Shown piece by piece: positions 41,443 through 57,565 of a stretch of 64,000 nt of DNA (its first letter is position 1; the number at the start of each line of letters is the position of its first letter). The stretch covers positions 62,001 through 126,000 of the forward strand of contig JASHNU010000073.1 of the NCBI GenBank assembly GCA_030041475.1, written 5' to 3'. The notes beneath the pieces are model-generated. The model made no database searches. It saw only the letters and a program-made list of their open reading frames with translations, and was not told the DNA's origin. The position numbers and the translations under genes are program-made. This DNA comes from Candidatus Sulfotelmatobacter sp. (lineage in GTDB: Bacteria; Acidobacteriota; Terriglobia; Terriglobales; Acidobacteriaceae).

Positions 41443-41847
41443 TTATCCTCGCCAGTCGCCGATCTCCTTCAAACCTTTGCCACGGGCGTGTTCAAACAAC
41501 CGCACGCGATGGCGCGAATGTTCGAATTCGTGGATATCGGCCCAGACCTCTGCCTGCCAGCCCTTGTCGTGTGCGGCCGATTCACCACAAGTCGCGCAAC
41601 GGGTGTGTAAAGTTACCGGCAGCGATTCTACTCCCACCGGAACGGCTCCCGGCAGTTCGATGAAAATGCAGCGGACTTCTTGTATTTCCTCATCCTCGCC
41701 AAGGATGTGCTCGTAGCGCAGGAGATAACCGAAGCCCAGCTTGTGGGCCTCCGCCTCCGCTTCGGCTCGAGTGTGAAAAGGGCCATACTCCGCCCGCAGC
41801 GGCTCGGTGGAGTCGCAAGCCATCCAGAAGGTTTCCTTGTAAGCCAT
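41443..41847 (-). CDS. Hypothetical protein with a CxxC motif
   Basis: 134 residues, soluble, mixed alpha/beta composition. It begins MAYKETFWMACDSTEPLRAE, has an Ala/Glu-rich helix (HTRAEAEAEAHKLGFGYLLR), and contains HTRCATCGESAAHDKGW, a likely zinc or redox site, followed by several His residues (EFEHSRHRVRLFEHARG). No family is recognised. ATG at 41847. Convergent with pgl. Confidence 0.6.
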   Translation of the reverse strand: MAYKETFWMACDSTEPLRAEYGPFHTRAEAEAEAHKLGFGYLLRYEHILGEDEEIQEVRCIFIELPGAVPVGVESLPVTLHTRCATCGESAAHDKGWQAEVWADIHEFEHSRHRVRLFEHARGKGLKEIGDWRG

Positions 41848-42222: not shown

Positions 42223-42480
42223 TCAGGCCCCGATCGCCCGCCCCGCCAGTTCGCCGTGCTCCTGCTCGAGCGGCCAGTTCCTGCCGCCATGGCTGGCCAC
42301 GTACATCGCCAGCTCCAGACGGCTCCAGACGCCCAGCTTGTCAAATGTGCTGCGCAGATGATTTTTGATCACTTGCTCGGTAGTGCCGACGATCTTGCCA
42401 ATTTCGCGATTGGTAAGCCCCTGCCACACCAGTTGCGCCACTTGTATTTCTTTCGGGGTAAGACACTCACACGGCGTCAT
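42223..42480 (-). CDS. HTH-only LuxR/GerE-type regulator (pair A, second gene)
   Basis: 85 residues consisting almost only of a GerE/LuxR DNA-binding domain: LTPKEIQVAQLVWQGLTNRE, then IGTT-like (VGTTEQVIKNHLRSTFDKLG). There is no receiver or sensor domain. A second, divergent version of this protein lies at 47751-47987 with the same companion gene. The ATG at 42480 overlaps the stop of the upstream HTH gene by 4 nt, so the two are translationally coupled. Confidence 0.82.
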   Translation of the reverse strand: MTPCECLTPKEIQVAQLVWQGLTNREIGKIVGTTEQVIKNHLRSTFDKLGVWSRLELAMYVASHGGRNWPLEQEHGELAGRAIGA

Positions 42481-42701
42481 GACTGCGCTTCCTCCTTGGT
42501 GAACATGGCAATCGCCAGCTTCACCCGCTTTCGGCCATCGCGGATTCCTGCACGCAAGAAGAGCGTGCGCAAATGCTGTTTTACGGTGCGCGGGCTGATG
42601 TTCAACTGTCCCGCAATTTCTTTGTTGCTGCAGCCCTGCACCAGGAGATTCAGAACCTGTTGGTCTCGGGGTGTGACTTTGACTTGCTCCAGATCGATCA
42701 C
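42477..42701 (-). CDS. HTH-only LuxR/GerE-type regulator (pair A, first gene)
   Basis: About 74 residues from a GTG at 42701, chosen because GGAGG lies 8 nt before it and the length then matches its paralogue at 47906-48196; the frame is open 68 codons farther upstream. The domain reads VTPRDQQVLNLLVQGCSNKE, then IAGQLNISPRTVKQHLRTLF and the distinctive IRDGRKRVKLAIAMF end. It lacks any sensory domain. It ends in an ATGA overlap with the second HTH gene. Confidence 0.78.
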   Translation of the reverse strand: MIDLEQVKVTPRDQQVLNLLVQGCSNKEIAGQLNISPRTVKQHLRTLFLRAGIRDGRKRVKLAIAMFTKEEAQS

Positions 42702-43258
42702 AATTGCATCCTCCACGTTCCGGGAATCAACTTCACCCTCTCCTAAAGCACACCTTTCGCCATTTATTCGGGCGCAGAAATGACAAAGCCCTAAGATATT
42801 GCGATCGCTATGGTTGTAGCGGCGATGCCTGTGTTTCAGGCGTTCTTCAGGAAGGACGTGGTAGCCTGAGAAAGTTCCGATTTGGTCCAGCAACTTGACC
42901 CACAAACCGCACCTGCACGATCTTGGTTTATGGCAGGCCTGCCTAGGGACAGGCCGATAACACAGGTGAGGACGCGACAGTTTCGTACACCTTTGGCAGA
43001 TCCCCTTTCACTTCTGCACGTTCCGCAGTACGAGAGAGCCCGGCATAATTTCATGAGGCTTACATCGAAGAACTCGATCTGCCCAACGTACCTCTGCCAT
43101 CATCTTTCCCACATCGGTCACAGCACAGAGGACCCCATTCTCAATTCGGGGCTGGGAGAGACTTTTGCACAGCTCACAACGCCATGGGCGCAGGTGCTTC
43201 ACGCCATAACTGGAATGGTGGTCGAAAACGTTGCTGCAAACATTGCTTCGACACGGGG
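42702..43258. other. Intergenic stretch with a nested palindrome
   Basis: About 560 bp between the divergent HTH pair A and the beta-barrel gene, with no supported gene. GGCAGGCCTGCC (42932-42943) is a perfect 12-bp palindrome, and GGCCTG-CCTAGGGA-CAGGCC (42936-42955) overlaps it, a plausible binding site for HTH dimers. Both transcripts should start in this stretch. Confidence 0.4.
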
Positions 43259-44134
43259 ATGAATCTGGCACTCATGCTTAATTTCATCCCCTCAGGTAGC
43301 ACCGAAAATTCAGGGCCGAGTCCTGGTCAGCGGGTGGTGATTTCTGAGCGCTCGAAAACCAGGCTGAGGACAATCCTCTGTTTCTTCTCTCTGCTGCTTC
43401 TTGGCAGCGGTCTCAGCTTCGCTCAGGGCGGGCCTCCCTTCTACACCACCGATCCTGCAACTCCCGGTCACCTGAACTGGGAAATCAATTTCGGTTATAT
43501 GCCGTTTCTGTACAGCGGCAATTCCATCACCCACACCCCCGACGTGGACATCAATTTCGGCGTGGGAGACCGCATTCAGCTCACTTACGAAAATGCCTGG
43601 CTGCGTGTCTGGAACCAGGGCACTCCCGCGAAATATGGCCTGGGGCAGGACATACTCGGGTTAAAGTGGCGCTTCTACGACACGGGCGAGAAGGGCATGC
43701 AGTTCTCCATTTTTCCCCAGCTCTCGGTCAACAATCCCAATCACGCCGTGCAACGTGGCATCACGCCCCCGGGCGCGAGTTTGCTGCTTCCCGTTGAGTT
43801 CACCCGGAAAATCGGCCCCATCGACCTGAACATTGAATCCGGCTATAACATCGTGCATCTCGGACCAGACGGTTGGTTCACCGGAGTGATCGTCGGCCAC
43901 GAGTTCACCAAGAAGCTCGAACTGGACGCCGAATTTTTCTGCACCGGCACCTTCCACCCTGCCTATGCACAGCCCACGCTCGACGTCGGCGGCCGATACA
44001 AACTGCACCGGCCTTTCATTCTTCTCTGGATGGCTGGGCGCGGGGTCGAACCGGCCAAAAGCGACCAGCCGTACTTCGTCGGCTATTTCGGGGTGCAGGT
44101 CCTGCTGCCGCTGAAGTCCTATGACAGGGAGTGA
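43259..44134 (+). CDS. Predicted outer-membrane beta-barrel protein
   Basis: About 291 residues. After a long polar start comes a signal peptide (RLRTILCFFSLLLLGSGLSF, AQ cut), then alternating amphipathic strands such as LNWEINFGYMPFLYSGNSI, VDINFGVGDRIQLTYENAWL and IDLNIESGYNIVHLGPDGWF. The pattern recalls the MetA-pathway-of-phenol-degradation-like transporter family of outer-membrane proteins; substrate unknown. Start is uncertain: ATG 43259 or GTG 43337 directly before the signal peptide. Confidence 0.68.
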   Translation: MNLALMLNFIPSGSTENSGPSPGQRVVISERSKTRLRTILCFFSLLLLGSGLSFAQGGPPFYTTDPATPGHLNWEINFGYMPFLYSGNSITHTPDVDINFGVGDRIQLTYENAWLRVWNQGTPAKYGLGQDILGLKWRFYDTGEKGMQFSIFPQLSVNNPNHAVQRGITPPGASLLLPVEFTRKIGPIDLNIESGYNIVHLGPDGWFTGVIVGHEFTKKLELDAEFFCTGTFHPAYAQPTLDVGGRYKLHRPFILLWMAGRGVEPAKSDQPYFVGYFGVQVLLPLKSYDRE

Positions 44135-44398
44135 TCTCTGGTTACCATAGTCACCGATCGCCTCTACTAGTCGCTTCAGCCCAACTTTTGCTGGCAAAGA
44201 AGACTCGCAAGCTGGGGCTTCCAGCGTTAAACTAGGGAGGATCTAGGAGCGCTTCCAGCGGAGCGTCAGGCAAGCCCCGGAATTTTCTTCCCCCATTTGA
44301 AAATCGGCCTTGGTACTTCCGATTGACCGCGGAATTTACAATAGAATACGCACAGCTCTCTCCGGAACAACACCGGACTGCAGACATCGGACGGCTTC

Positions 44399-46144
44399 GT
44401 GACTAAGAAAAAAGGGTCCGACAAGAACGACAAACCAGTTCTGAACGAGGAACTTCTCAGTAAGCTGCTCGAGGCGGCCTATGTGCTCCAGGAGCACAAC
44501 CGCCGAACGCGCGGAACGGAGCTGCGCGTCGAACTGGACCAGCCGGCGGGGGACGACGCCGAAAGTGCACCTGCGGAAGCTCCGGTATCGCAGAGCTCAG
44601 CTGTCCTAGGGGCCCCTGCCGACAACCCTCCGCTGGCGAAGGAAGAAGCCTTTACCGCTGATTACACCGCCATTCTCGCCCAAATCGTCGAGACGCAACA
44701 CAAGATTCAGCTGCGCAATCTGAAATTGGAAGATGCTATGACGCTCGTCGCTGCGCGTGTGCGCGAGATTGCGAAAGCCAGCGGCTCCGCTATCGCCACG
44801 ATCAACGGTAAGCGGATACGGTACCGGGCAGCGGCTGGCGACATGGTTCTTCCCGTTGGTACAGAAGTCTCCGCGGAAAAAGCGCTTTGCTCGGCTTGCG
44901 TCCGCACCGGGCAGGTGATCCGGGGCGCCAACATCAACACCGAGTTTCTTCTCGACAGCCGAGAGTGCCAACGGCGCGGCATTCAATCCATGATCGCAGT
45001 TCCTATCTACCACGAGGGTCGGATCGCAGGCGGGCTCGAGCTCTACTACGCCACACCCCAGGCCTTCACCGAGGAGAACGTTCACACTTGCCAGTTGATG
45101 GCCGGCCTTGTCACCGAAGCCCTGGCGCGCGATGAAGAAACCACTTGGAGGCAGTCGCTGGCCACGGAACGGCAAGTCGTGCTCGATGCTCTGCTAAGAC
45201 TCGATCCCAGTCTCGCGCCGCCGGAAAATGCGGCCACAGGCAAAGTCAGCGGAGTAACAACCGCAGACTTCAAATGTCGCAAATGCGGGCATCAACTCGC
45301 GCGCGAAGAGAACTTCTGCGGAAAATGCGGGACGGCGCGGCCTGATGAACACCCGACGACTGCATTGCCACCCAAACCGGCTCCAACTATGCCCGAAGGT
45401 GCAAAGCAAGGCACGAGTCGAGTGCCGAGCGAGGCAAGCGCAGGAGAGGACCTGGCCGGTACTGGCGGACTTCGGGGCGGCAATTCGTTGACGGAGTCGA
45501 TCGAACAGGAAATGCCCGACCTGTTCACTCCGAGCCCATCAGATGCGGCAGAACCTTCTGGTGCGATGGTTCGCCGGCCCATTGAGATCACGGATCACTC
45601 GCATCTGCCCTTCGACCTCGAAGCCAACGACAGAGAAGAGGAAGCAAACGGCACGCTCCCCGAGACCTCTCTTGCCCCGGCAGACTCGGTAGCAGACTGG
45701 AGTTCCGCCGCCTCCGCGCGTGCTTTCCTGCAGCAACTGGCGGCCGGCAGGTCGGACACCTTCGCCCGCTTCTGGAGAGCGCGCCGCGGCGACATTTATC
45801 TGGCAGTCGCCGGCATTCTGGTCGCGGTAGTGATCGGCTGGGGAATCTGGTCCGAGCATCCGGTCGGCGCCGCCAACGCGACGGCTGCGGGACACAGGAA
45901 AGCTCCGGATGCCGATCTCTCCATCCTCGATCACATGCTCATCAGTCTCGGCCTGGCGGAGGCGCCTCAACCGCCTGAGTCCAAGGGCAATCCCGACACG
46001 CAGGTTTGGGTCGATCTCCACACCGCGCTTTATTACTGTCCCGGAGCCGATCTCTACGGCAAAACCCCTAAGGGGAAATTCACCACGCAGCGCGACGCTC
46101 AGCTCGACCAGTTTGAGCCCGCCTATCGGAAAGCCTGCGAGTGA
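44399..46144 (+). CDS. GAF-domain, zinc-ribbon, single-pass membrane protein
   Basis: 581 residues from GTG 44399. Domains in order: helical N-terminus (15-60), GAF-like sensor domain (about 90-255; IAKASGSAIATINGKRIRYR and IQSMIAVPIYHEGRIAGGLE, with an internal CSAC motif), a zinc ribbon (about 290-316; FKCRKCGHQLAREENFCGKC), a long Pro/Ser/Glu-rich linker, one transmembrane helix (about 468-490; IYLAVAGILVAVVIGWGIW) and a C-terminal segment containing ALYYCPGADLYGKTPKGKFT. No kinase or output domain is present. Function is unknown; a membrane-linked sensor or adaptor is inference. Confidence 0.75.
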   Translation: MTKKKGSDKNDKPVLNEELLSKLLEAAYVLQEHNRRTRGTELRVELDQPAGDDAESAPAEAPVSQSSAVLGAPADNPPLAKEEAFTADYTAILAQIVETQHKIQLRNLKLEDAMTLVAARVREIAKASGSAIATINGKRIRYRAAAGDMVLPVGTEVSAEKALCSACVRTGQVIRGANINTEFLLDSRECQRRGIQSMIAVPIYHEGRIAGGLELYYATPQAFTEENVHTCQLMAGLVTEALARDEETTWRQSLATERQVVLDALLRLDPSLAPPENAATGKVSGVTTADFKCRKCGHQLAREENFCGKCGTARPDEHPTTALPPKPAPTMPEGAKQGTSRVPSEASAGEDLAGTGGLRGGNSLTESIEQEMPDLFTPSPSDAAEPSGAMVRRPIEITDHSHLPFDLEANDREEEANGTLPETSLAPADSVADWSSAASARAFLQQLAAGRSDTFARFWRARRGDIYLAVAGILVAVVIGWGIWSEHPVGAANATAAGHRKAPDADLSILDHMLISLGLAEAPQPPESKGNPDTQVWVDLHTALYYCPGADLYGKTPKGKFTTQRDAQLDQFEPAYRKACE

Positions 46145-46225
46145 GCGAATGCCACTGTACTTTTGTGCTTCCGCTCGCTGATGTAGGTCCGTGCACTTCC
46201 TTACTGATTTCCACACTCTTTCGAA

Positions 46226-46254
46226 TTGACAACCTCCCACCCCCGGAGTGCAAT
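46226..46254 (+). promoter_or_regulatory. Possible promoter before the zinc-ribbon/Sel1 gene
   Basis: TTGACA (46226-46231), a 17-nt spacer and TGCAAT (46249-46254) precede the TTG start at 46282. The -35 is exact; the -10 matches 4 of 6 bases. Confidence 0.4.
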
Positions 46255-46281
46255 CATATTTGGAGAAAAGGAGCGACCTGA

Positions 46282-47703
46282 TTGCCGCAAAGAGCCGATA
46301 ATTCTGACCATCCCGACTCGCTCCCTCCACCGGAATTAAATCCGCTCCTGAATCCACTGCTGGGCGCGCACATGGGCCGCTGGGCGGAAGTCTATTTCAC
46401 CAGCCCGCCGGAAAAACGCGACCAGGCCGTGTGGGACCTTTTGTGCGAACTGAAAGCCGAACAAACTGCGGGCGCGGGCTCCGCAGCGCCACTTTCTACG
46501 AATGGTGAGCGCGTCGCCACACATCCGGTCTCGCTGCGCGACAGCTCTCCGCTCCAGGGCCCTGGGATCGAAGATCTTCGCGCCCGTTTCTCGGCTCCTT
46601 CCGTCGCGGAGGTCAGGCCGGACTTGATCGTGTGTTCCGCCTGCGGTTTTGAAAGTCCCGCCCGTCAAAGGTTCTGTGGCATGTGTGGCACACGTCTCGC
46701 GAAGCGGCCGGCTGCTCTGAACGGACCTTCCACACATTTGCCGCCTGCTCCATCGGCTGCGGCAGAAACGGACCGACACGAGTCCAATCTGAATTCAGAA
46801 CCGGATCTGACTCTTGAGCCGAGTCAAAGTTTTGAGGCGGGTCGTTCTGAAGCGGATCAACGATCAGCGGCGAATGGAAGAAGTGAGCCGAATCAAGAAC
46901 CTGAAAGCGCTCCCTCCACCCATGTCCTCGACGAGTTCCCCTGGAGGCGCGATGAGAACTCGCTATTTCGCATCGCAGAGGAAGTGCGCCCGCATGGCAT
47001 TCGCGGCAGCCTGTTCGGAGACCCGGCGGATGGTTCGCTACGGTACCGACGTTATCTTGTGGCAGCCGTGGTCGTGGCGATCTTCGCCCTAGGCTATATC
47101 ACATGGCGGGCGCTGCAAAATCAGCCCAGCGCAGCGCTGCCAACCGCACCCGCCGCGCAGGAGCAGACTCCCGAGCAAAAATCGGTGGCCAATGCCGTGC
47201 AGTCAGCGGCGAGCCAAGTCGCGACCAATCAGCCCTCCGCGGCCCAGCCTTCTGATATCGCTGCATCCGTGTCCGCGTCTGAACCTGCAACCGCGCCCGC
47301 AAAAACCGCGACCATGAAAACAAAGACCAGCATGGGCGAATCAACCGCAACCCACGATCCCGGTCAGAACGCTCTGACGTCCCAGCCGACGAGCACGGCG
47401 GCCGACTCTTTGATGCCAGAGACTGCCGAATCCGGCGCCACGGACCTCGCCATGGGACGCAGCTATCTGAATGGCACTAACGGCCACGAACGCAACAGCA
47501 CTGAAGCTGCAGACTGCCTCTGGCGGGCCGTTTCCAAAAAGAATGCGGAAGCCACGCTCTTGTTGGCTGATCTATATTTGAGAGGAGATGGCGTTTCCAA
47601 GAATTGCGACCAGGCCCGAGTGCTGCTCGATGCCGCTGCGCGCAAGGGTTCGAAAGACGCCGCCGAACGGCTGCGCAATCTTCCGGCCTTTGGCTGCGAG
47701 TAA
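46282..47703 (+). CDS. Zinc-ribbon, membrane, Sel1-repeat protein
   Basis: 473 residues from TTG 46282 (AAGGAG about 9 nt upstream). An N-terminal helical module (about 20-60; HMGRWAEVYFTSPPEKRDQA) resembles the start of the PilZ protein at 30917. A zinc ribbon (CSACGFESPARQRFCGMCGT) follows, then a Ser/Glu-rich linker, a transmembrane helix (about 252-272), an Ala/Gln/Thr-rich periplasmic linker, and Sel1-like repeats at the C-terminus (TEAADCLWRAVSKKNAEATL and YLRGDGVSKNCDQARVLLDA). Layout parallels the GAF protein upstream: zinc ribbon, linker, one helix, extracytoplasmic part. Partner unknown. Confidence 0.75.
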   Translation: MPQRADNSDHPDSLPPPELNPLLNPLLGAHMGRWAEVYFTSPPEKRDQAVWDLLCELKAEQTAGAGSAAPLSTNGERVATHPVSLRDSSPLQGPGIEDLRARFSAPSVAEVRPDLIVCSACGFESPARQRFCGMCGTRLAKRPAALNGPSTHLPPAPSAAAETDRHESNLNSEPDLTLEPSQSFEAGRSEADQRSAANGRSEPNQEPESAPSTHVLDEFPWRRDENSLFRIAEEVRPHGIRGSLFGDPADGSLRYRRYLVAAVVVAIFALGYITWRALQNQPSAALPTAPAAQEQTPEQKSVANAVQSAASQVATNQPSAAQPSDIAASVSASEPATAPAKTATMKTKTSMGESTATHDPGQNALTSQPTSTAADSLMPETAESGATDLAMGRSYLNGTNGHERNSTEAADCLWRAVSKKNAEATLLLADLYLRGDGVSKNCDQARVLLDAAARKGSKDAAERLRNLPAFGCE

Positions 47704-47750
47704 TCGCGGTCGCTCTTGGATGCGAATATGCGCGCACGAATGACGGCGCT

Positions 47751-47987
47751 CTACTGCGTGAGAAACGCCGACGGGCTGCGCCTCGCCTCATACCACAGCG
47801 CCAGTTCCACGCGGTTCCAAAGTCCCAGCTTGTCGTAGATCACCCGCAGGTAGTTCTTCACTACATGCTCGGTCGTGCCGATCTCCTGGGCTACTTCGCG
47901 GTTCTTCAGGCCTTGGGCAACAAGGTGGATGACTCTCTGTTCACGCTCACTGGGGATACGGGTGCCATACCGTTCACTTGCAGACAT
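47751..47987 (-). CDS. HTH-only LuxR/GerE-type regulator (pair B, second gene)
   Basis: 78 residues starting MSASERYGTRIPSEREQRVI at ATG 47987. The HTH is VAQGLKNREVAQEIGTTEHV followed by VKNYLRVIYDKLGLWNRVEL; it aligns with the second gene of pair A (IGTTEHVVKNYL versus VGTTEQVIKNHL; YDKLGLWNRVELALW versus FDKLGVWSRLELAMY). Its first 82 nt overlap the 3-prime end of the companion gene in another frame. Confidence 0.78.
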   Translation of the reverse strand: MSASERYGTRIPSEREQRVIHLVAQGLKNREVAQEIGTTEHVVKNYLRVIYDKLGLWNRVELALWYEARRSPSAFLTQ

Positions 47988-48196
47988 GCCTGCCTCCGAT
48001 ACAAGATAGTTGCGAGTTTCACTCGCTTGATGCCGTCCGTAATTCCAAACCGGAGGAACAGCCGGTTGAAATGAGCCTTGACGGTTCGCCTCGCCATCTT
48101 GAGTTGGCTGGCAATCTCGGCGTTGTCGCAGCCTTGCAAAAGCAGTTCGACAATCTGTTCTTCGCGCGGGCCTAGCCGGACCGTGTGCTCCTTCAT
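47906..48196 (-). CDS. HTH-only LuxR/GerE-type regulator (pair B, first gene)
   Basis: 96 residues. Residues 1-69 are the HTH domain (LGPREEQIVELLLQGCDNAE, then ASQLKMARRTVKAHFNRLFL and ITDGIKRVKLA), the counterpart of the first gene of pair A. Residues 70-96 are an extra tail encoded entirely within the overlap with the next gene; the pair A counterpart stops about there. ATG at 48196. Confidence 0.75.
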   Translation of the reverse strand: MKEHTVRLGPREEQIVELLLQGCDNAEIASQLKMARRTVKAHFNRLFLRFGITDGIKRVKLATILYRRQACLQVNGMAPVSPVSVNRESSTLLPKA

Positions 48197-48843
48197 TTGC
48201 TCCCCCTACTGCGATTTGATTTGATTTCCAGCCCGATCCGGCGCGCGAGGCCGGGCGTTTCCAAAACCCATAGCATCCGCAATGCCAACTTGAGACCCAT
48301 TCTCGATTGTGACGACCGACCAACATTTTCCACAACATGCACTTACACACGAAACGCACATTGGACGGTCCTTCGCACTCCGCTGCAGGCTACCGCTCTC
48401 ACTTCCCAATTTCGTAACCCTGACCGCGACCGCGCAGAATCGGTGGAAAACCCACGCCTCTTCCCAAATTGAACCGGGCCACCTACGCGGCTTTGCGCAC
48501 TGTGCTGCGCGAAATTGCGTCTTCGCCTCAGCACAACGAGATTGACTGATTCGTGCGCGCGCATGGGATGTGGAAAGAAATTGCGACTTGCTCAGGTAAA
48601 CACCCTAGGCGAAATTTCCTATTCCGCGCCCGCTCCCTGAACAAATTACACGATTCCCCACGGCCCGGGCCGCACTGCAAGGTCGGCTGCACGTTGAGTA
48701 CAATCAGCCTAGCTCCAACGATCCAGGCCAGCTTGTAAGTAGTGCAAAATACTGGCAATCTGGAAATTCGGCGCAACGGTATCCCCAGGTTGCGGTGGGT
48801 TGCACATTCCGTAGGTTGAAGACTGACGCGCCGCTTTCGCCGT
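48197..48843. other. Long intergenic region, no gene seen
   Basis: About 650 bp between divergent HTH pair B and the phosphopantetheinyl transferase gene. Short frames here are not supported by ribosome sites, length or motifs. It must contain the promoters for both directions; I could not pick a convincing -35/-10 pair. The composition is less GC-rich than the flanking genes. Confidence 0.4.
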
Positions 48844-49632
48844 ATGGATTCCGAGCCAAAGCCAGAGCCAAACATCGAGATTCGCGACTACTCTGAGGCG
48901 GCCCTCCGCAGTGTGACCAGTCTGCTCCCCGGAGTTGTGCACCTGTGGTGGCGATCGCTCGAAGAGTCGGAAGGGGAGGTCCAAACCTGCTGCGAACTTC
49001 TCTCGCGTGACGAGCAGGACCGCGCGTCACGCTTTCGGGTAGAAGATGCTCGCGGGAATTTCATCTTGACCCGTGGCACATTGCGTTTGCTGCTCGCTGC
49101 CTACCTGCAAAAGAAGCCGGACCAGCTCTCGTTCGGGCTCACGAAATATGGCAAGCCTTTTCTCGATGGGCCACCTGACGCGCGCGTGAATGGCGTGCAC
49201 TTTAACGTATCTCACGCCGACGGCCTTGCCCTGCTGGGCTTTGCGCGTCAGCGCGAAATTGGAGTCGACGTCGAGCGCATTCGGCCCGAACTCGATACTT
49301 GGCAGTTGGCGGAGCGTTTCTTCTCCGCCCACGAGCGCAGCGTCCTGAAGAATCTCGGCGGTGAGGAACTTCAGTCGGCGTTTTTTCGTTGCTGGAGCAG
49401 GAAAGAGGCTTACATCAAGGCACGAGGTGAAGGATTGTCACTTCCGCTCAGCCAATTCGACGTGTCCATCGCACCGAACGAATCCCACGCTCTTCTGGCA
49501 ACCAGACCCGACGCTAGCGAAGCGGCGCGCTGGATTTTACGCGACGTGCCTGTGCGCGACGTTGCCCGCAACCTGCCCATGACTCGTGAATATGCCGCAG
49601 CCTGCTCGTTTTCGCTCAAGCCAGAGATCTAA
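48844..49632 (+). CDS. Sfp-type 4-prime-phosphopantetheinyl transferase
   Basis: 262 residues. The three family motifs are visible: VNGVHFNVSHADGLALL, IGVDVERIRPELD (Mg2+ binding GVDVE) and FFRCWSRKEAYIKARGEGL (WxxKEAxxK). The enzyme attaches the phosphopantetheine arm of CoA to carrier domains. The nearby NRPS has one such carrier (Ser1021), which is the obvious client. ATG at 48844, ribosome site unclear. Confidence 0.92.
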   Translation: MDSEPKPEPNIEIRDYSEAALRSVTSLLPGVVHLWWRSLEESEGEVQTCCELLSRDEQDRASRFRVEDARGNFILTRGTLRLLLAAYLQKKPDQLSFGLTKYGKPFLDGPPDARVNGVHFNVSHADGLALLGFARQREIGVDVERIRPELDTWQLAERFFSAHERSVLKNLGGEELQSAFFRCWSRKEAYIKARGEGLSLPLSQFDVSIAPNESHALLATRPDASEAARWILRDVPVRDVARNLPMTREYAAACSFSLKPEI

Positions 49633-53533: not shown

Positions 53534-56500
53534 ATGAACACTGAGACCATCCATCCAAGCGCATCCCGGCCAAGCGTATGCCGCCCGGCAGGGAGACCTC
53601 TCCTTGTCGCTCAAGAACGGTTTTGGGTGCTCGAGCAATTGCACCTGGGCAGCGCCGTTCAGAATATCGCGCTAGGCCTGCGCTGGACAGGTCGGTTCGA
53701 CCCCGGGGCGCTGCAGTCGGCGATGGACGAACTGATTCAACGGCATGAAATGCTGCGAACCGAATTTCATGTTTTTGACGGATCAGCGCGGCAGGTTGTG
53801 TCCTCATCGGCCAAGGTTGTTATCGGCAGCAACGATCTGCGCGGGATGCCAGATGCCGATCGCGAGCGTGAATTCCGGCGAAGTGCCGGAGAAGAACGGA
53901 AAAAATCCTTCGATCTGTCGCAGGCTCCCCTGCTGCGCGCGACATTGTTCCATATGTCGGATGCCGAACAGATTCTTCTCGCCGTCACGCATCGCATCGT
54001 CTGCGATGAGAGTTCTCTCCGAATCCTGCTCAGCGAACTCTATTCGGCTTACGCAGTTTTGCAGGAATCACCCGGACAAACACACACGAGCAAACCGGAC
54101 GGCGGCTTCGCTCCGCTCGATGTAGTGTCCCCTGCTGACATTTCGTTCTGGTTAAAACATCTGGCGGGGGCACCGGCAGGCCTGGAGTTGCCAACAGATC
54201 ATGCCAGGCCTGCCGTGCAGCAATTTCGCGGTAGTTGCGACGAGATGACGCTTCAGGCGCAGCTTGTGACGCGACTGCGAGAGCTTGGCGACAGCCACAA
54301 GGCCACACTGTTCACCACGCTGCTCGCCGGCTTCAGTGTTTTCTTGTCTCGCTATGCGCGTCAAGAGGATTTGGTGATTGGAACGCTGGTTTCCGGTCGC
54401 GATCGCGCGGAACTTACGAACGCCGTTGGCCCGATCGAAAACATGCTCGGTCTTCGTTTCGACGTTCCGGGTTTCGACCTGTCGGGCTTCGGCCGGTCGA
54501 GCAGTCCCAGCTTTGCTGATTTCGTAGCACGCGTACGGCGCAGCACGGAAGAATGCTTCGAGCACAAGAACGTGCCTTTCGAATCCGTGGTGCGCGAATT
54601 GCGCCTGCCGCGGGACATGAGCCGACATCCGGTGTTTCAGGTCATGTTCACGGCGAAGGAAGAGTACGCGGCGCTTGCGCCGGGCACCAGCCTGCTGGAA
54701 GTGGAAAATTCAGCAGAGCAGCTTGATCTCAGAGTTGAGTTCATGGAACAGAACGGCGAAGTCAAACTGCGCTTCCACTACGATGCCGATCTGTTCGATG
54801 CGGCAAACATCCGCCGCATGATGGGGAATTTCAATGTATTGCTGCAGTCGGTGGCAGCGGACCCAACGCTGCCAATCTCGCGGATTCCGCTGCTCACCGG
54901 GGCAGAGCGTCAGCAGTTGCTCGTCGATTGGAATGACACCAGCAGGGCTTATCCCACAGAGGTACCGCTGCACCGGCTGATCGAAGAGCAAGTTGAAAAG
55001 ACCCCCGAATCCATCGCGCTGATCTACGAATCGGAGCAATTGACTTATCGGCAGTTGAACGACCGCGCCAACCGGCTGGCGCATTATCTTCGAGAAAACG
55101 GAGTCGGCCCCGACGTTCTGGTGGGAATCTGTGCCGAGCGCTCGCTGGAAATCGTCATCGCGTTGCTGGCTTCGCTCAAGGCAGGTGGCGCGTACGTTCC
55201 GCTGGACCCGGAATATCCCAAAGACCGGCTGGTCGCGATGCTGCGCAACGCGAATCCGGCGGTGGTTCTGACGCAGCGCCATCTGCTCGATCGCCTGCCC
55301 GATAAAACGAAGAACGTGTTCTGCCTCGATCGCGACTGGCCGTCGCTCGCGTCGAAGAGCAGTAAGAATCCGAACATTGCCGTGGAGGGAAAGAGCCTGG
55401 CGTATGCAATTTACACATCTGGATCGACCGGCGAGCCCAAGGGCGTGCCCAACATTCACGAAGCCATCGTGAACCGGCTGCTCTGGATGCAAGACACCTA
55501 TCAGTTAACGGCCAAAGACCGCGTGCTGCAGAAAACTCCATTCAGTTTCGACGTTTCGGTGTGGGAGTTTTTCTGGCCGCTGCTGGCGGGGGCGACTCTG
55601 GTCGTGGCCCGTCCTGGCGGACATCGGGACCCGGCGTACCTGGTGAATCTGATCGCGGCACAAGACATCACGACGCTGCACTTCGTGCCCTCGATGCTCC
55701 GCATTTTTCTCGAATCGGCGGGGCTGGAACGGTGCTGCTCCATCCGGCAGATTTTCGCGAGCGGCGAAGCGCTGGCCTTCGAACTGCAACAGCGGTTTTT
55801 CAAGCGCATGAAGGCGGAGTTGCACAACTTGTACGGCCCGACGGAAGCTGCCGTGGACGTCACGTACTGGCGTTGCCGCCCTGACACGGAGGGCGCCATT
55901 GTTCCCATTGGCCGGCCAATCGCCAACACGCAGATTTACATTCTCGATCCGAATCTGCAGCCCGTTCCTGTCGGCGTGCAGGGAGAATTGCACATCGGCG
56001 GAATCGGGCTGGCTCGCGGATATTTGAATCGGCCTGATCTTACGGCGGAAAAATTCATCCCCGATCCATTCAGCGGAGCTCCGAACGCTCGCTTATACAA
56101 AACTGGAGATCTGGCGCGGTTTCTGGCGGATGGAAACATCGAGTATCTCGCCCGCATTGACAATCAGGTGAAGCTGAGGGGCTTCCGCATCGAACTGGGC
56201 GAAATTGAAGCGGTCCTCGGCCAGTGCGCGGGAGTCCTGCAGGCAGTTGTTATTGTCCGCGAGGACAATCGTGGAGATAAGCGTCTCGTGGCCTATTTGA
56301 TGGCTGCACCCGGCGGCAAATTGGTCATGGACGCGCTGCGCCGAGAACTGAAGAACAAACTTCCCGATTACATGGTGCCGTCGCAGATCGTCGTGTTGAA
56401 AGAATTTCCCATGACCACCAGTGGCAAGGTGGACCGTCGCGCGCTCCCCGCGCCCCAAGATGATGGCCGAACGACAACCGCACGCGTTGCACCGCGCAAC

Positions 56501-57565
56501 GAGATGGAATCTCACCTGGCGCAGATTTTCGCCAGCGTGCTGGGACTGCCATCGGTGGGCGTGACCGACAATTTTTTCGACCTCGGCGGGCACTCGCTGA
56601 CGGCCGCGCGCCTGCTGGCTCAGATCAACGAGATTACGGGACGGCAGATTCCGCTTTCCGCAATGTTTCGCGGTGCGACAGTTGAGTCGCTGGCACGGAT
56701 CATCAGCGAGCACAAGGACGCGAACGATCCGGTGGTAATGGAGATTCAGCACGGCGATGGTTCTGGCTTGCCGTTTTTTGCCATCGTGCCGGCGGGCGAA
56801 GAATCGATCGGCTACGCGATTCTGGCGCGGCACATGGGACCCCAACAGCACGTGTACAAAGTTCAGGGACACAGTCCGGTTGCGGGCGATCATCCTTACA
56901 CGCCGGAGCAATTGCAGTCGCTGGCCGGCGAGTATGTCGCCGCGATGCGTGCGGTGCAGCCTGAGGGCCCGTATTGTGTGGGAGGGCTATGCGGTGGCGT
57001 GCACATCGGAGAGCGCGTGGTGGTAGAGCTCGAAGCACAGGGGCAGGAAGTCGCGCTGTTTGTGTCGATCGATACGTGGGTGATGCAACACAGCATGCGG
57101 TTGTGGCTGGGGCGCGTTCACTATTTCGAGCAGCGGCTGCGGGAGGTTAAGAACTGGAGCTTTCGAGAACAACTTCGCCACTACAAGGGTGCGGCCGGCA
57201 ATCTGATGCGGAGGCTAACGGGTAAAGCGCCGGCGCGCACCGAGTGGCAGGAGGCCTACTGGCCGGGGAATTTCGTTACCACGCAATTCCGCGCTCCGGT
57301 GATTCTGTTCAAGCGTCCGAAGCAGCCCTACTATTACGTGAAGGATCCGCTGATGGGATGGGGCGCTCGCACCACCAGCGGCGTGGAGGTTCACGAAATC
57401 AATTTCGACCATCTCTACCTGCTGCGGGAACCGCATGTGAGAGTGCTGGGGGAAAAGTTAGCAGCGTGCATCCAGCGGGCGAGTGTGAGGAATGGACAAG
57501 AACGCCAGGCGCGGGAGGGGTCCCGTTCTGAACAGCCAGTGTGGGCCGGCGGAAAAGCGGAATAG
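53534..57565 (+). CDS. Single-module nonribosomal peptide synthetase (C-A-T-TE)
   Basis: 1343 residues. Condensation domain (about 20-440): the catalytic HHxxxDG motif reads HRIVCDE (153-159), so the catalytic second His is Arg154 and the Gly is Glu. Adenylation domain (about 465-960): YAIYTSGSTGEPKGVP, FSFDVSVWEFFWPL (D673, W677), LYGPTEAAVDV, YKTGDLARF, TTSGKVDRRAL. The binding-pocket residues by alignment are D-V-W-H-F-S-L-V-D-K, the published serine code. Carrier domain: DLGGHSLTAARLL, Ser1021. Thioesterase (about 1080-1320): GGLCGG with Cys1153 in place of Ser, and His1293. Architecture is EntF-like but no other siderophore genes occur. It should load Ser; the real product is unknown. 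Confidence 0.9.
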   Translation: MNTETIHPSASRPSVCRPAGRPLLVAQERFWVLEQLHLGSAVQNIALGLRWTGRFDPGALQSAMDELIQRHEMLRTEFHVFDGSARQVVSSSAKVVIGSNDLRGMPDADREREFRRSAGEERKKSFDLSQAPLLRATLFHMSDAEQILLAVTHRIVCDESSLRILLSELYSAYAVLQESPGQTHTSKPDGGFAPLDVVSPADISFWLKHLAGAPAGLELPTDHARPAVQQFRGSCDEMTLQAQLVTRLRELGDSHKATLFTTLLAGFSVFLSRYARQEDLVIGTLVSGRDRAELTNAVGPIENMLGLRFDVPGFDLSGFGRSSSPSFADFVARVRRSTEECFEHKNVPFESVVRELRLPRDMSRHPVFQVMFTAKEEYAALAPGTSLLEVENSAEQLDLRVEFMEQNGEVKLRFHYDADLFDAANIRRMMGNFNVLLQSVAADPTLPISRIPLLTGAERQQLLVDWNDTSRAYPTEVPLHRLIEEQVEKTPESIALIYESEQLTYRQLNDRANRLAHYLRENGVGPDVLVGICAERSLEIVIALLASLKAGGAYVPLDPEYPKDRLVAMLRNANPAVVLTQRHLLDRLPDKTKNVFCLDRDWPSLASKSSKNPNIAVEGKSLAYAIYTSGSTGEPKGVPNIHEAIVNRLLWMQDTYQLTAKDRVLQKTPFSFDVSVWEFFWPLLAGATLVVARPGGHRDPAYLVNLIAAQDITTLHFVPSMLRIFLESAGLERCCSIRQIFASGEALAFELQQRFFKRMKAELHNLYGPTEAAVDVTYWRCRPDTEGAIVPIGRPIANTQIYILDPNLQPVPVGVQGELHIGGIGLARGYLNRPDLTAEKFIPDPFSGAPNARLYKTGDLARFLADGNIEYLARIDNQVKLRGFRIELGEIEAVLGQCAGVLQAVVIVREDNRGDKRLVAYLMAAPGGKLVMDALRRELKNKLPDYMVPSQIVVLKEFPMTTSGKVDRRALPAPQDDGRTTTARVAPRNEMESHLAQIFASVLGLPSVGVTDNFFDLGGHSLTAARLLAQINEITGRQIPLSAMFRGATVESLARIISEHKDANDPVVMEIQHGDGSGLPFFAIVPAGEESIGYAILARHMGPQQHVYKVQGHSPVAGDHPYTPEQLQSLAGEYVAAMRAVQPEGPYCVGGLCGGVHIGERVVVELEAQGQEVALFVSIDTWVMQHSMRLWLGRVHYFEQRLREVKNWSFREQLRHYKGAAGNLMRRLTGKAPARTEWQEAYWPGNFVTTQFRAPVILFKRPKQPYYYVKDPLMGWGARTTSGVEVHEINFDHLYLLREPHVRVLGEKLAACIQRASVRNGQERQAREGSRSEQPVWAGGKAE

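Follow-up and report, generated by a model that had tools for sequence, protein, structure and literature searches.

Two paralogous pairs of overlapping HTH-only LuxR-type genes with sigma-54-like promoter elements in Candidatus Sulfotelmatobacter and its relatives

Four HTH-only genes in two pairs

The stretch of DNA analyzed here (64,000 nucleotides (nt) of Candidatus Sulfotelmatobacter sp. contig JASHNU010000073.1; hereafter the window) contains two pairs of short, overlapping genes encoding LuxR-type proteins with a helix-turn-helix (HTH) domain only. The upstream members of the pairs are named A and A', and the downstream members B and B':

42477..42701, minus strand: gene A, GerE/LuxR-type HTH-only, 74 amino acids (aa), GTG start; PF00196 E-value (E) 3.2e-14 (frame 42477-42752)
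42223..42480, minus strand: gene B, GerE/LuxR-type HTH-only, 85 aa, ATG start; PF00196 E 8.1e-13
47906..48196, minus strand: gene A', HTH-only paralogue of A, 96 aa; PF00196 E 4.5e-11
47751..47987, minus strand: gene B', HTH-only paralogue of B, 78 aa; PF00196 E 4.7e-12

The original prediction, made from the letters of the window, had placed four open reading frames (ORFs) here and quoted their C-terminal ends, and both the frames and the ends are present in the translations (A, ...GIRDGRKRVKLA; A', ...GITDGIKRVKLA; B, ...LGVWSRLELAMY; B', ...LGLWNRVELALW). Its statement that the proteins lack a sensor also holds: searches of A, B, A' and B' against Pfam gave no sensor domain, no receiver (PF00072) and no autoinducer-binding domain. 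PF00196 (GerE) is matched at 52.7, 48.2, 42.7 and 45.8 bits against a curated cut-off of 23.5, and the other Pfam matches are only to HTH and sigma-factor families, apart from one sub-cut-off match to a transposition protein.

Identity is 53% both between A and A' (64 aa) and between B and B' (53 aa), whereas within the pairs it is 32% over 59 aa (A/B) and 29% over 52 aa (A'/B'), so that the similarity across loci lies above the general HTH level. The A-type proteins have three additional residues ahead of the last helix. Gene order and strand are alike at both loci, and the two sets of genes are paralogous, as had been proposed. GerE is matched 16 times in the genome (4.63 Mb, 112 contigs), and 12 of these matches are outside the two pairs. 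The ratio of nonsynonymous to synonymous substitution (dN/dS) is 0.021-0.029 for the four genes (0.026 for A; core codons, 13 genomes), a rough estimate because synonymous sites are close to saturation; the genes are under strong purifying selection.

Pairing, overlap and fusion of A and B

Pairing was counted for domains of at least 60 bits that were distinct by their surrounding DNA, with near-copies from sister genomes counted apart (n = 123). Two loci fell below the cut-off and were left out, one with an internal stop in A followed by a damaged B (L058) and one unrelated (L177). B follows A at all 54 distinct A domains, and B' follows A' at 65 of 69; mixed pairs (A-B' or A'-B) are absent from the 123 distinct domains. 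The B of one locus (L121) is weak, at 48 bits.

In the window, the ATG of B lies over the stop codon of A (4-nt overlap), and A' and B' overlap by 82 nt; a GGAGG sequence is located directly ahead of the B and B' starts, inside the upstream gene. Across loci, A and B overlap by 4 nt (n = 33), 22 nt (n = 10), 14 nt (n = 5) or 2 nt (n = 1), and at five loci (L060-L063 and L129; 5/54 A domains) they are fused into a single ORF. The overlap of A' and B' is always at least 58 nt, and is 82 nt in 29/65. These values are counted from the start of the B domain, which is not a start codon in 3/54 B and 12/65 B'. The overlap and occasional fusion of the pair genes suggest, from the gene arrangement, that the two proteins act as a unit.

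At 14 of the 65 paired loci, the A' frame continues across most of B', which is read in a different frame (overlaps of 292-367 nt). A conserved function of the A' tail was considered and rejected, because the position of the stop varies and some A' frames run through much of B'; the tail seems to result from the overlap itself. Immediately upstream of three of the five fusions is a small ORF (L061:4402-4581, L060:5423-5596, L063:4206-4373) that by eye resembles the H-box region of a histidine kinase, and the two of these ORFs that were tested have no Pfam match.

A' is predicted to be tetrahelical (helices at residues 10-20, 25-32, 36-50 and 57-74). Both A' and a fused protein, from L130, are predicted as four-helix HTHs, with predicted local distance difference test (pLDDT) values of 84-96 per block in the domains. 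The AlphaFold model of the fused protein has both halves as four-helix domains joined by a low-confidence linker, and its predicted template modelling (pTM) score of 0.69 hints at a fixed arrangement of the halves. Foldseek matches with good template modelling (TM) scores are to single HTH domains.

Promoter-like elements upstream of the pairs

Alignment of the upstream regions of 48 A and 65 A' genes reveals conserved blocks. In the window, the elements upstream of the pairs are:

42746..42763, minus strand: sigma-54-like -24/-12 element of A-B, ATGGCGAAAGGTGTGCTT
42846-42866 and 42874-42888, minus strand: conserved upstream boxes of A-B, from the alignment of 48 upstream regions
48271..48288, minus strand: sigma-54-like -24/-12 element of A'-B', TTGGCATTGCGGATGCTA
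48307..48335, minus strand: inverted-repeat upstream site of A'-B', TTGTG-N19-CACAA

In the gene-proximal blocks, TTTGGCGAA-N4-GTGCT and TGGCAttGTGGaTGCT, the spacing is GG-N10-GC, as in sigma-54 promoters, whose consensus is given in the available text of PMC6424431 as TGGCACG-N4-TTGCW. TGG-N9-TGC is present within 150 nt upstream of 49/54 A and 54/69 A' genes, as compared with 3-4% of shuffles; a similar, looser pattern, counted in 300-nt regions and without a shuffle control, occurs at 47/52 A and 62/69 A'. TGGC-N8-TGCW, counted in fetched stretches with extra copies excluded, lies upstream of A at 28/31 loci (shuffles 0.9%) and of A' at 29/31 (shuffles 0.8%). For control genes, the counts are 0/22 (glk), 0/26 (pgl), 1/29 (x41443, downstream of B), 1/31 (B), 1/31 (B'), 0/10 (PPT) and 0/5 (PAPSS), and for two of the intervening genes described below 0/8 (barrel) and 0/22 (Sel1-Zn). 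The genome encodes one RpoN (E 2e-59), and PF00158 is matched 26 times, with E<=2e-45 for 22 of the matches. By eye, no enhancer-binding protein was noticed beside the pairs in the ORF listings of five loci, which were read without a Pfam run.

The original prediction had pointed to the intergenic segments 42702-43258 and 48197-48843 as the places where the pairs would bind. Both do hold deeply conserved elements, but these resemble sigma-54 promoters with upstream sites, and no operator common to both pairs was seen by eye in the aligned upstream regions. The inverted repeat upstream of A' is found again, in the looser form [CT]TGTGG-N17-19-TCAC, at 32/69 loci versus 0.14% of shuffles.

The upstream sites were also searched against six genomes, with up to three mismatches and a reversed control pattern. 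For the A' site, four of the six genomes (G010, G011, G013 and G035) have their single best match at the A' promoter. In the window's own genome, two places match equally well with one mismatch, the A' promoter and a stretch of contig C57, and in G018 the A' promoter is unmatched, the best match lying elsewhere with two mismatches. Matches at three mismatches are such as the reversed control yields as well (0-3 per genome). Following up the places in the own genome (C57), G010 and G018 gave no supported second target: those on C57 and in G010 have no -24/-12 element within 220 nt, and in G018 the element overlaps the matched site itself. The A site is matched in three of the six genomes, each time at the A promoter by position, and is not matched in the own genome.

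Phylogeny and duplication of the pair

A tree of 89 HTH domains (77 columns) bears on the proposed duplication of the pair. A and A' form one clade (support 99/88), and A' (99/99), B (95/89) and B' (100/100) are each recovered. The clade that holds B and B' includes two further regulators of the same genome, C18 and C105 (99/96), placed beside B' (86/57). Their HTHs are the nearest to those of B and B' (B is 59% identical to C105, and B' 44% to C18), but they are encoded by longer frames of 225 and 283 aa, and C105 has a receiver above the cut-off and C18 a degenerate one below it. Four of the fusions are in the tree, and they group as a single clade with either half. When constrained, B+B' monophyly costs 1.6 log units (p-AU, from the approximately unbiased test, 0.449), and grouping A, B, A' and B' together costs 8.0 (p 0.294). 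The proposal is partly supported: A and A' group as one clade, and on the B side the clade is shared with two longer regulators. That the pair was duplicated as a unit is likely and the simplest reading, and falls short of proof.

Synteny, spread and the genes between the pairs

The own genome and 60 relatives were searched with A'. Of the 36 other genomes in the genus, 32 have a match of 75-90% identity, and most of those have a second match of about 50%, usually on the same contig and strand. Both pairs are present in 24 of 40 examined stretches, which with the own genome gives 25 syntenic loci. The gene order is the same in all 25: x41443, B, A, variable genes, GAF-Zn, Sel1-Zn, B', A' (Sel1-Zn was scored from short partial matches in two, L042 and L044). 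The intervening genes in the window are:

43184..44134, plus strand: outer-membrane-protein-like ORF (barrel), divergent from A, without a Pfam match
44399..46144, plus strand: GAF and zinc-ribbon protein (GAF-Zn) with one transmembrane segment by eye; PF13185 E 7.6e-14, zinc ribbon slightly below cut-off
46282..47703, plus strand: zinc-ribbon, transmembrane (by eye) and Sel1 protein (Sel1-Zn); PF08238 E 5.6e-7, 30.3 bits against a cut-off of 30.7

GAF-Zn is divergent from A, and Sel1-Zn, whose PF12773 match is below cut-off, is convergent with B'. Identities to the window proteins across the other 24 loci are 77-97% for A, 67-87% for B, 75-90% for A', 79-86% for B' and 41-65% for GAF-Zn, with the upper GAF-Zn values coming from partial alignments. 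The C-terminal part of GAF-Zn (window 45700-46144, residues ~443-581) is best conserved, at 41-78%, and the remainder changes fast. A sigma-54 promoter for GAF-Zn was rejected, the TGGC-N8-TGCW pattern being found there in a minority of genomes and a TAGAATA-like element being better kept by eye.

Between A and GAF-Zn, nine of the 25 loci (the window included) have the barrel, nine have a resistance-nodulation-division (RND) pump and seven have neither. The RND pump genes are 83-92% identical to the L031 copy, whose operon matches OEP, HlyD and ACR_tran; it is a TolC-HlyD-AcrB-type efflux operon at L031:5935-12223. One barrel locus, L039, retains a 61-aa piece of an RND gene (L039:7545-7727).

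The original prediction had called the segment between the pairs an island. The intervening block exists, but a foreign insert was rejected: there is no break in base composition, and the block is syntenic across the genus. The same prediction had named the intervening genes as targets. Room of 3.5 kb or more is available at 56 A'B' pairs (nine had less), and 52 of these have GAF-Zn or Sel1-Zn, either being counted, convergent within 7 kb. Of the 42 A-B pairs with room, 34 have one of the two genes divergent and no more than 9 kb upstream, some of the eight misses being on short contigs. Neither is linked to the three lone A' genes (0/3) or the four fused copies (0/4) that could be scored. The zinc-ribbon genes are thus near-constant neighbors of A'B', which is linkage rather than binding, and this linkage is the strongest support for the intervening genes as putative members of the system; the same is not so for the barrel, present in only 9/25.

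At E<=1e-20, a profile of A and A' matches 68 of 250 genomes from the same family, spread over 32 of 79 genera. An even sample of the phylum (347 genomes) gave matches at E <1e-30 in four genomes, each a member of this family, and the next-best match, within a 263-aa frame, is at 3.7e-16. A B and B' profile gives those four genomes at E<=1.2e-28, and after them long open frames elsewhere in the family. The titles of 79 named loci include Candidatus Sulfotelmatobacter, Acidobacteriaceae and Terriglobia. Most are metagenome-assembled genomes (MAGs), and isolate names that refer to bog or palsa are frequent; two of the 79, L177 and L179, are other bacteria with ordinary LuxR matches.

Relation to known LuxR-type regulators

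The solved relatives of these proteins by sequence are VpsT, NarL, LiaR, GerE, VraR and DosR. By fold they include LiaR, NarL, DosR, VraR and GerE, and for A' chains of LiaR, NarL and GerE are among the best matches, with target TM scores of about 0.8, although the lowest Foldseek E is 0.0017. A close likeness is to GerE of Bacillus (PDB 1fse), which is likewise HTH-only, without a sensor and of similar length, and is among the A' matches by both sequence and fold. It is described in the available text of PMC5595907 as a 74-aa regulator of the LuxR-FixJ family that modulates sigma-K-controlled genes in sporulation. GerE is encoded by a single gene, however, whereas here there are two different subunits, overlapping genes and sigma-54-like promoters. 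All four proteins weakly match the 74-position LuxR-type model PedR (NCBIfam NF052366), but PedR is one protein and not a pair, and the four score 27-39 bits against its cut-off of 120. Compared with the named LuxR-type equivalogs of NCBIfam (PedR, NarL, CsgD, BglJ and others), all listed matches are below cut-off; for A, these are the best 25 of 30. The proteins, at 74-96 aa, differ from quorum-sensing LuxR by having no autoinducer-binding domain, and from two-component response regulators by having no receiver.

LuxR-family proteins without an autoinducer or receiver domain have been described in number, from Actinobacteria and others (PMC13136126, PMC3466318), and the available portions of these two papers treat single proteins and mention no obligate overlapping pair or fusion. 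HTH-only proteins of the family are known already, and new here are an obligate pair of overlapping genes, the fusion of its members and its duplication. According to the available part of PMC4125116, heterodimerization of transcription factors is rare in bacteria, with RcsB-RcsA, RcsB-BglJ and BldM-WhiI as LuxR-type examples. RcsA, BldM and WhiI are larger, with N-terminal domains, and do not come from overlapping pairs of HTH-only genes; the heterodimer proposed here is suggested by the genes. Within the terms and collection searched, no literature was found on LuxR in Sulfotelmatobacter or on sigma-54 together with enhancer-binding proteins in Acidobacteria.

Proposed mechanism and alternatives

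The comparative evidence for an unusual arrangement is strong, and the function proposed here is inferred from it. Because the two genes co-occur, overlap and are naturally fused in some genomes, a heteromeric unit is the best reading, and to this extent the heterodimers of the original prediction fit; contact between the subunits would be a consequence of that reading. We consider it probable, although far from assured, that each pair is a two-gene operon, the two operons being paralogous, and that each operon makes a single DNA-binding regulator of two obligate subunits under sigma-54 control. RNA polymerase with sigma-54 and an enhancer-binding protein would transcribe each operon from its conserved -24/-12 promoter, and the HTHs of A and B (or A' and B') would then bind DNA as a heterodimer at an asymmetric site. 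In NarL/GerE-type proteins the last helix is the dimer contact, and it may perhaps serve here as well. Since there is no sensor domain, the regulators would be switched by the amount made, being active when made, in a manner resembling GerE; the gerE gene is itself read by sigma-K polymerase. The linked GAF- and Sel1-type zinc-ribbon genes would be the first target candidates, and the pair was most likely duplicated once, prior to the divergence of these genera. If this is true, heterodimerization is built into the gene order, with tiny subunits, overlapping genes, two paralogous copies and single-chain fusions, in a clade of soil acidobacteria known largely from MAGs. How an HTH pair without a sensor acquires specificity, and how it is switched, could then be addressed directly in a system of four proteins of fewer than 100 residues and two short promoter regions.

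Several observations weigh against this proposal. Four A' genes (L059, L066, L147 and L178) have no B' although each has at least 3 kb of contig behind it, and the B' of L065 is interrupted by an internal stop, so that A-type proteins can occur alone. Genes can overlap without contact between their products. In the tree, A alone is one group in 64% of bootstrap trees, and exclusive monophyly of B and B' is neither supported nor rejected. The -24/-12 elements mostly fit the consensus at 9/13 positions, the element is missing from four of the five fused copies (L060 has it), and TGGC-N8-TGCW also occurs upstream of GAF-Zn in 9/26 genomes, the window not among them. Finally, the upstream sites yielded no regulon in the six genomes at up to three mismatches.

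Among the alternatives, the pairs may be local regulators of the intervening genes (barrel, GAF/zinc-ribbon and Sel1/zinc-ribbon), which is possible but somewhat less than an even prospect. The zinc-ribbon linkage of 52/56 and 34/42 pairs, and its absence from the lone and fused copies (0/3 and 0/4), would be expected of such a system, but as many syntenic loci have an RND pump as have the barrel (nine each), the pair promoters and the GAF-Zn promoter have no common motif by eye, and GAF-Zn evolves faster within the genus (41-65% identity) than the HTH genes (67-97%). It is doubtful that each protein is a lone GerE-like homodimer, with the operon shared only because both are needed simultaneously. 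GerE itself, a 74-aa LuxR-FixJ regulator in the available text of PMC5595907, and the four lone A' genes would fit homodimers, while cognate pairing without mixing and the natural A-B fusions do not.

We regard it as unlikely that the upstream elements are operators or leader elements and that the pairs are transcribed by a housekeeping sigma factor. About four of the 13 consensus positions are usually unmatched, and a site whose best match is the A' promoter in 4/6 genomes fits an autoregulatory operator; the GG-N10-GC spacing, however, is found in both paralogous promoters and is near absent from most neighboring genes, and RpoN is encoded in the genome. A more elaborate version of the heterodimer proposal, which we hold to be similarly improbable, is an Acidobacteriota clade-specific module of two paralogous sensor-less obligate HTH:HTH heterodimers, each with its own sigma-54 promoter and a dedicated upstream site, under the gating of membrane-bound GAF/zinc-ribbon (and Sel1) proteins encoded by the linked genes; these proteins would bind or release HTH subunits upon a signal, and the A-B fusions would be single-chain heterodimers. 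Least probable is a separate derivation of B and B' from longer response regulators by receiver loss, joining A and A' on two occasions, for although their clade holds C18, with its sub-threshold receiver, and C105, with a receiver, adjoining B' (86/57), A and A' are a single clade (99/88), the two loci are alike in gene order, strand and overlap, and placing B and B' in one clade costs only 1.6 log units.

Other features of the window

Two further features lie outside the pairs. Downstream of B, x41443 (41443-41847) encodes a 134-aa protein with a CxxC motif that is 77-93% conserved in the genus and for which a weak match to DUF7848 is the sole hit. On the other side, a 1343-aa ORF at 53534-57565 resembles a nonribosomal peptide synthetase by eye and lies ~4 kb from a phosphopantetheinyl transferase gene at 48844-49632.

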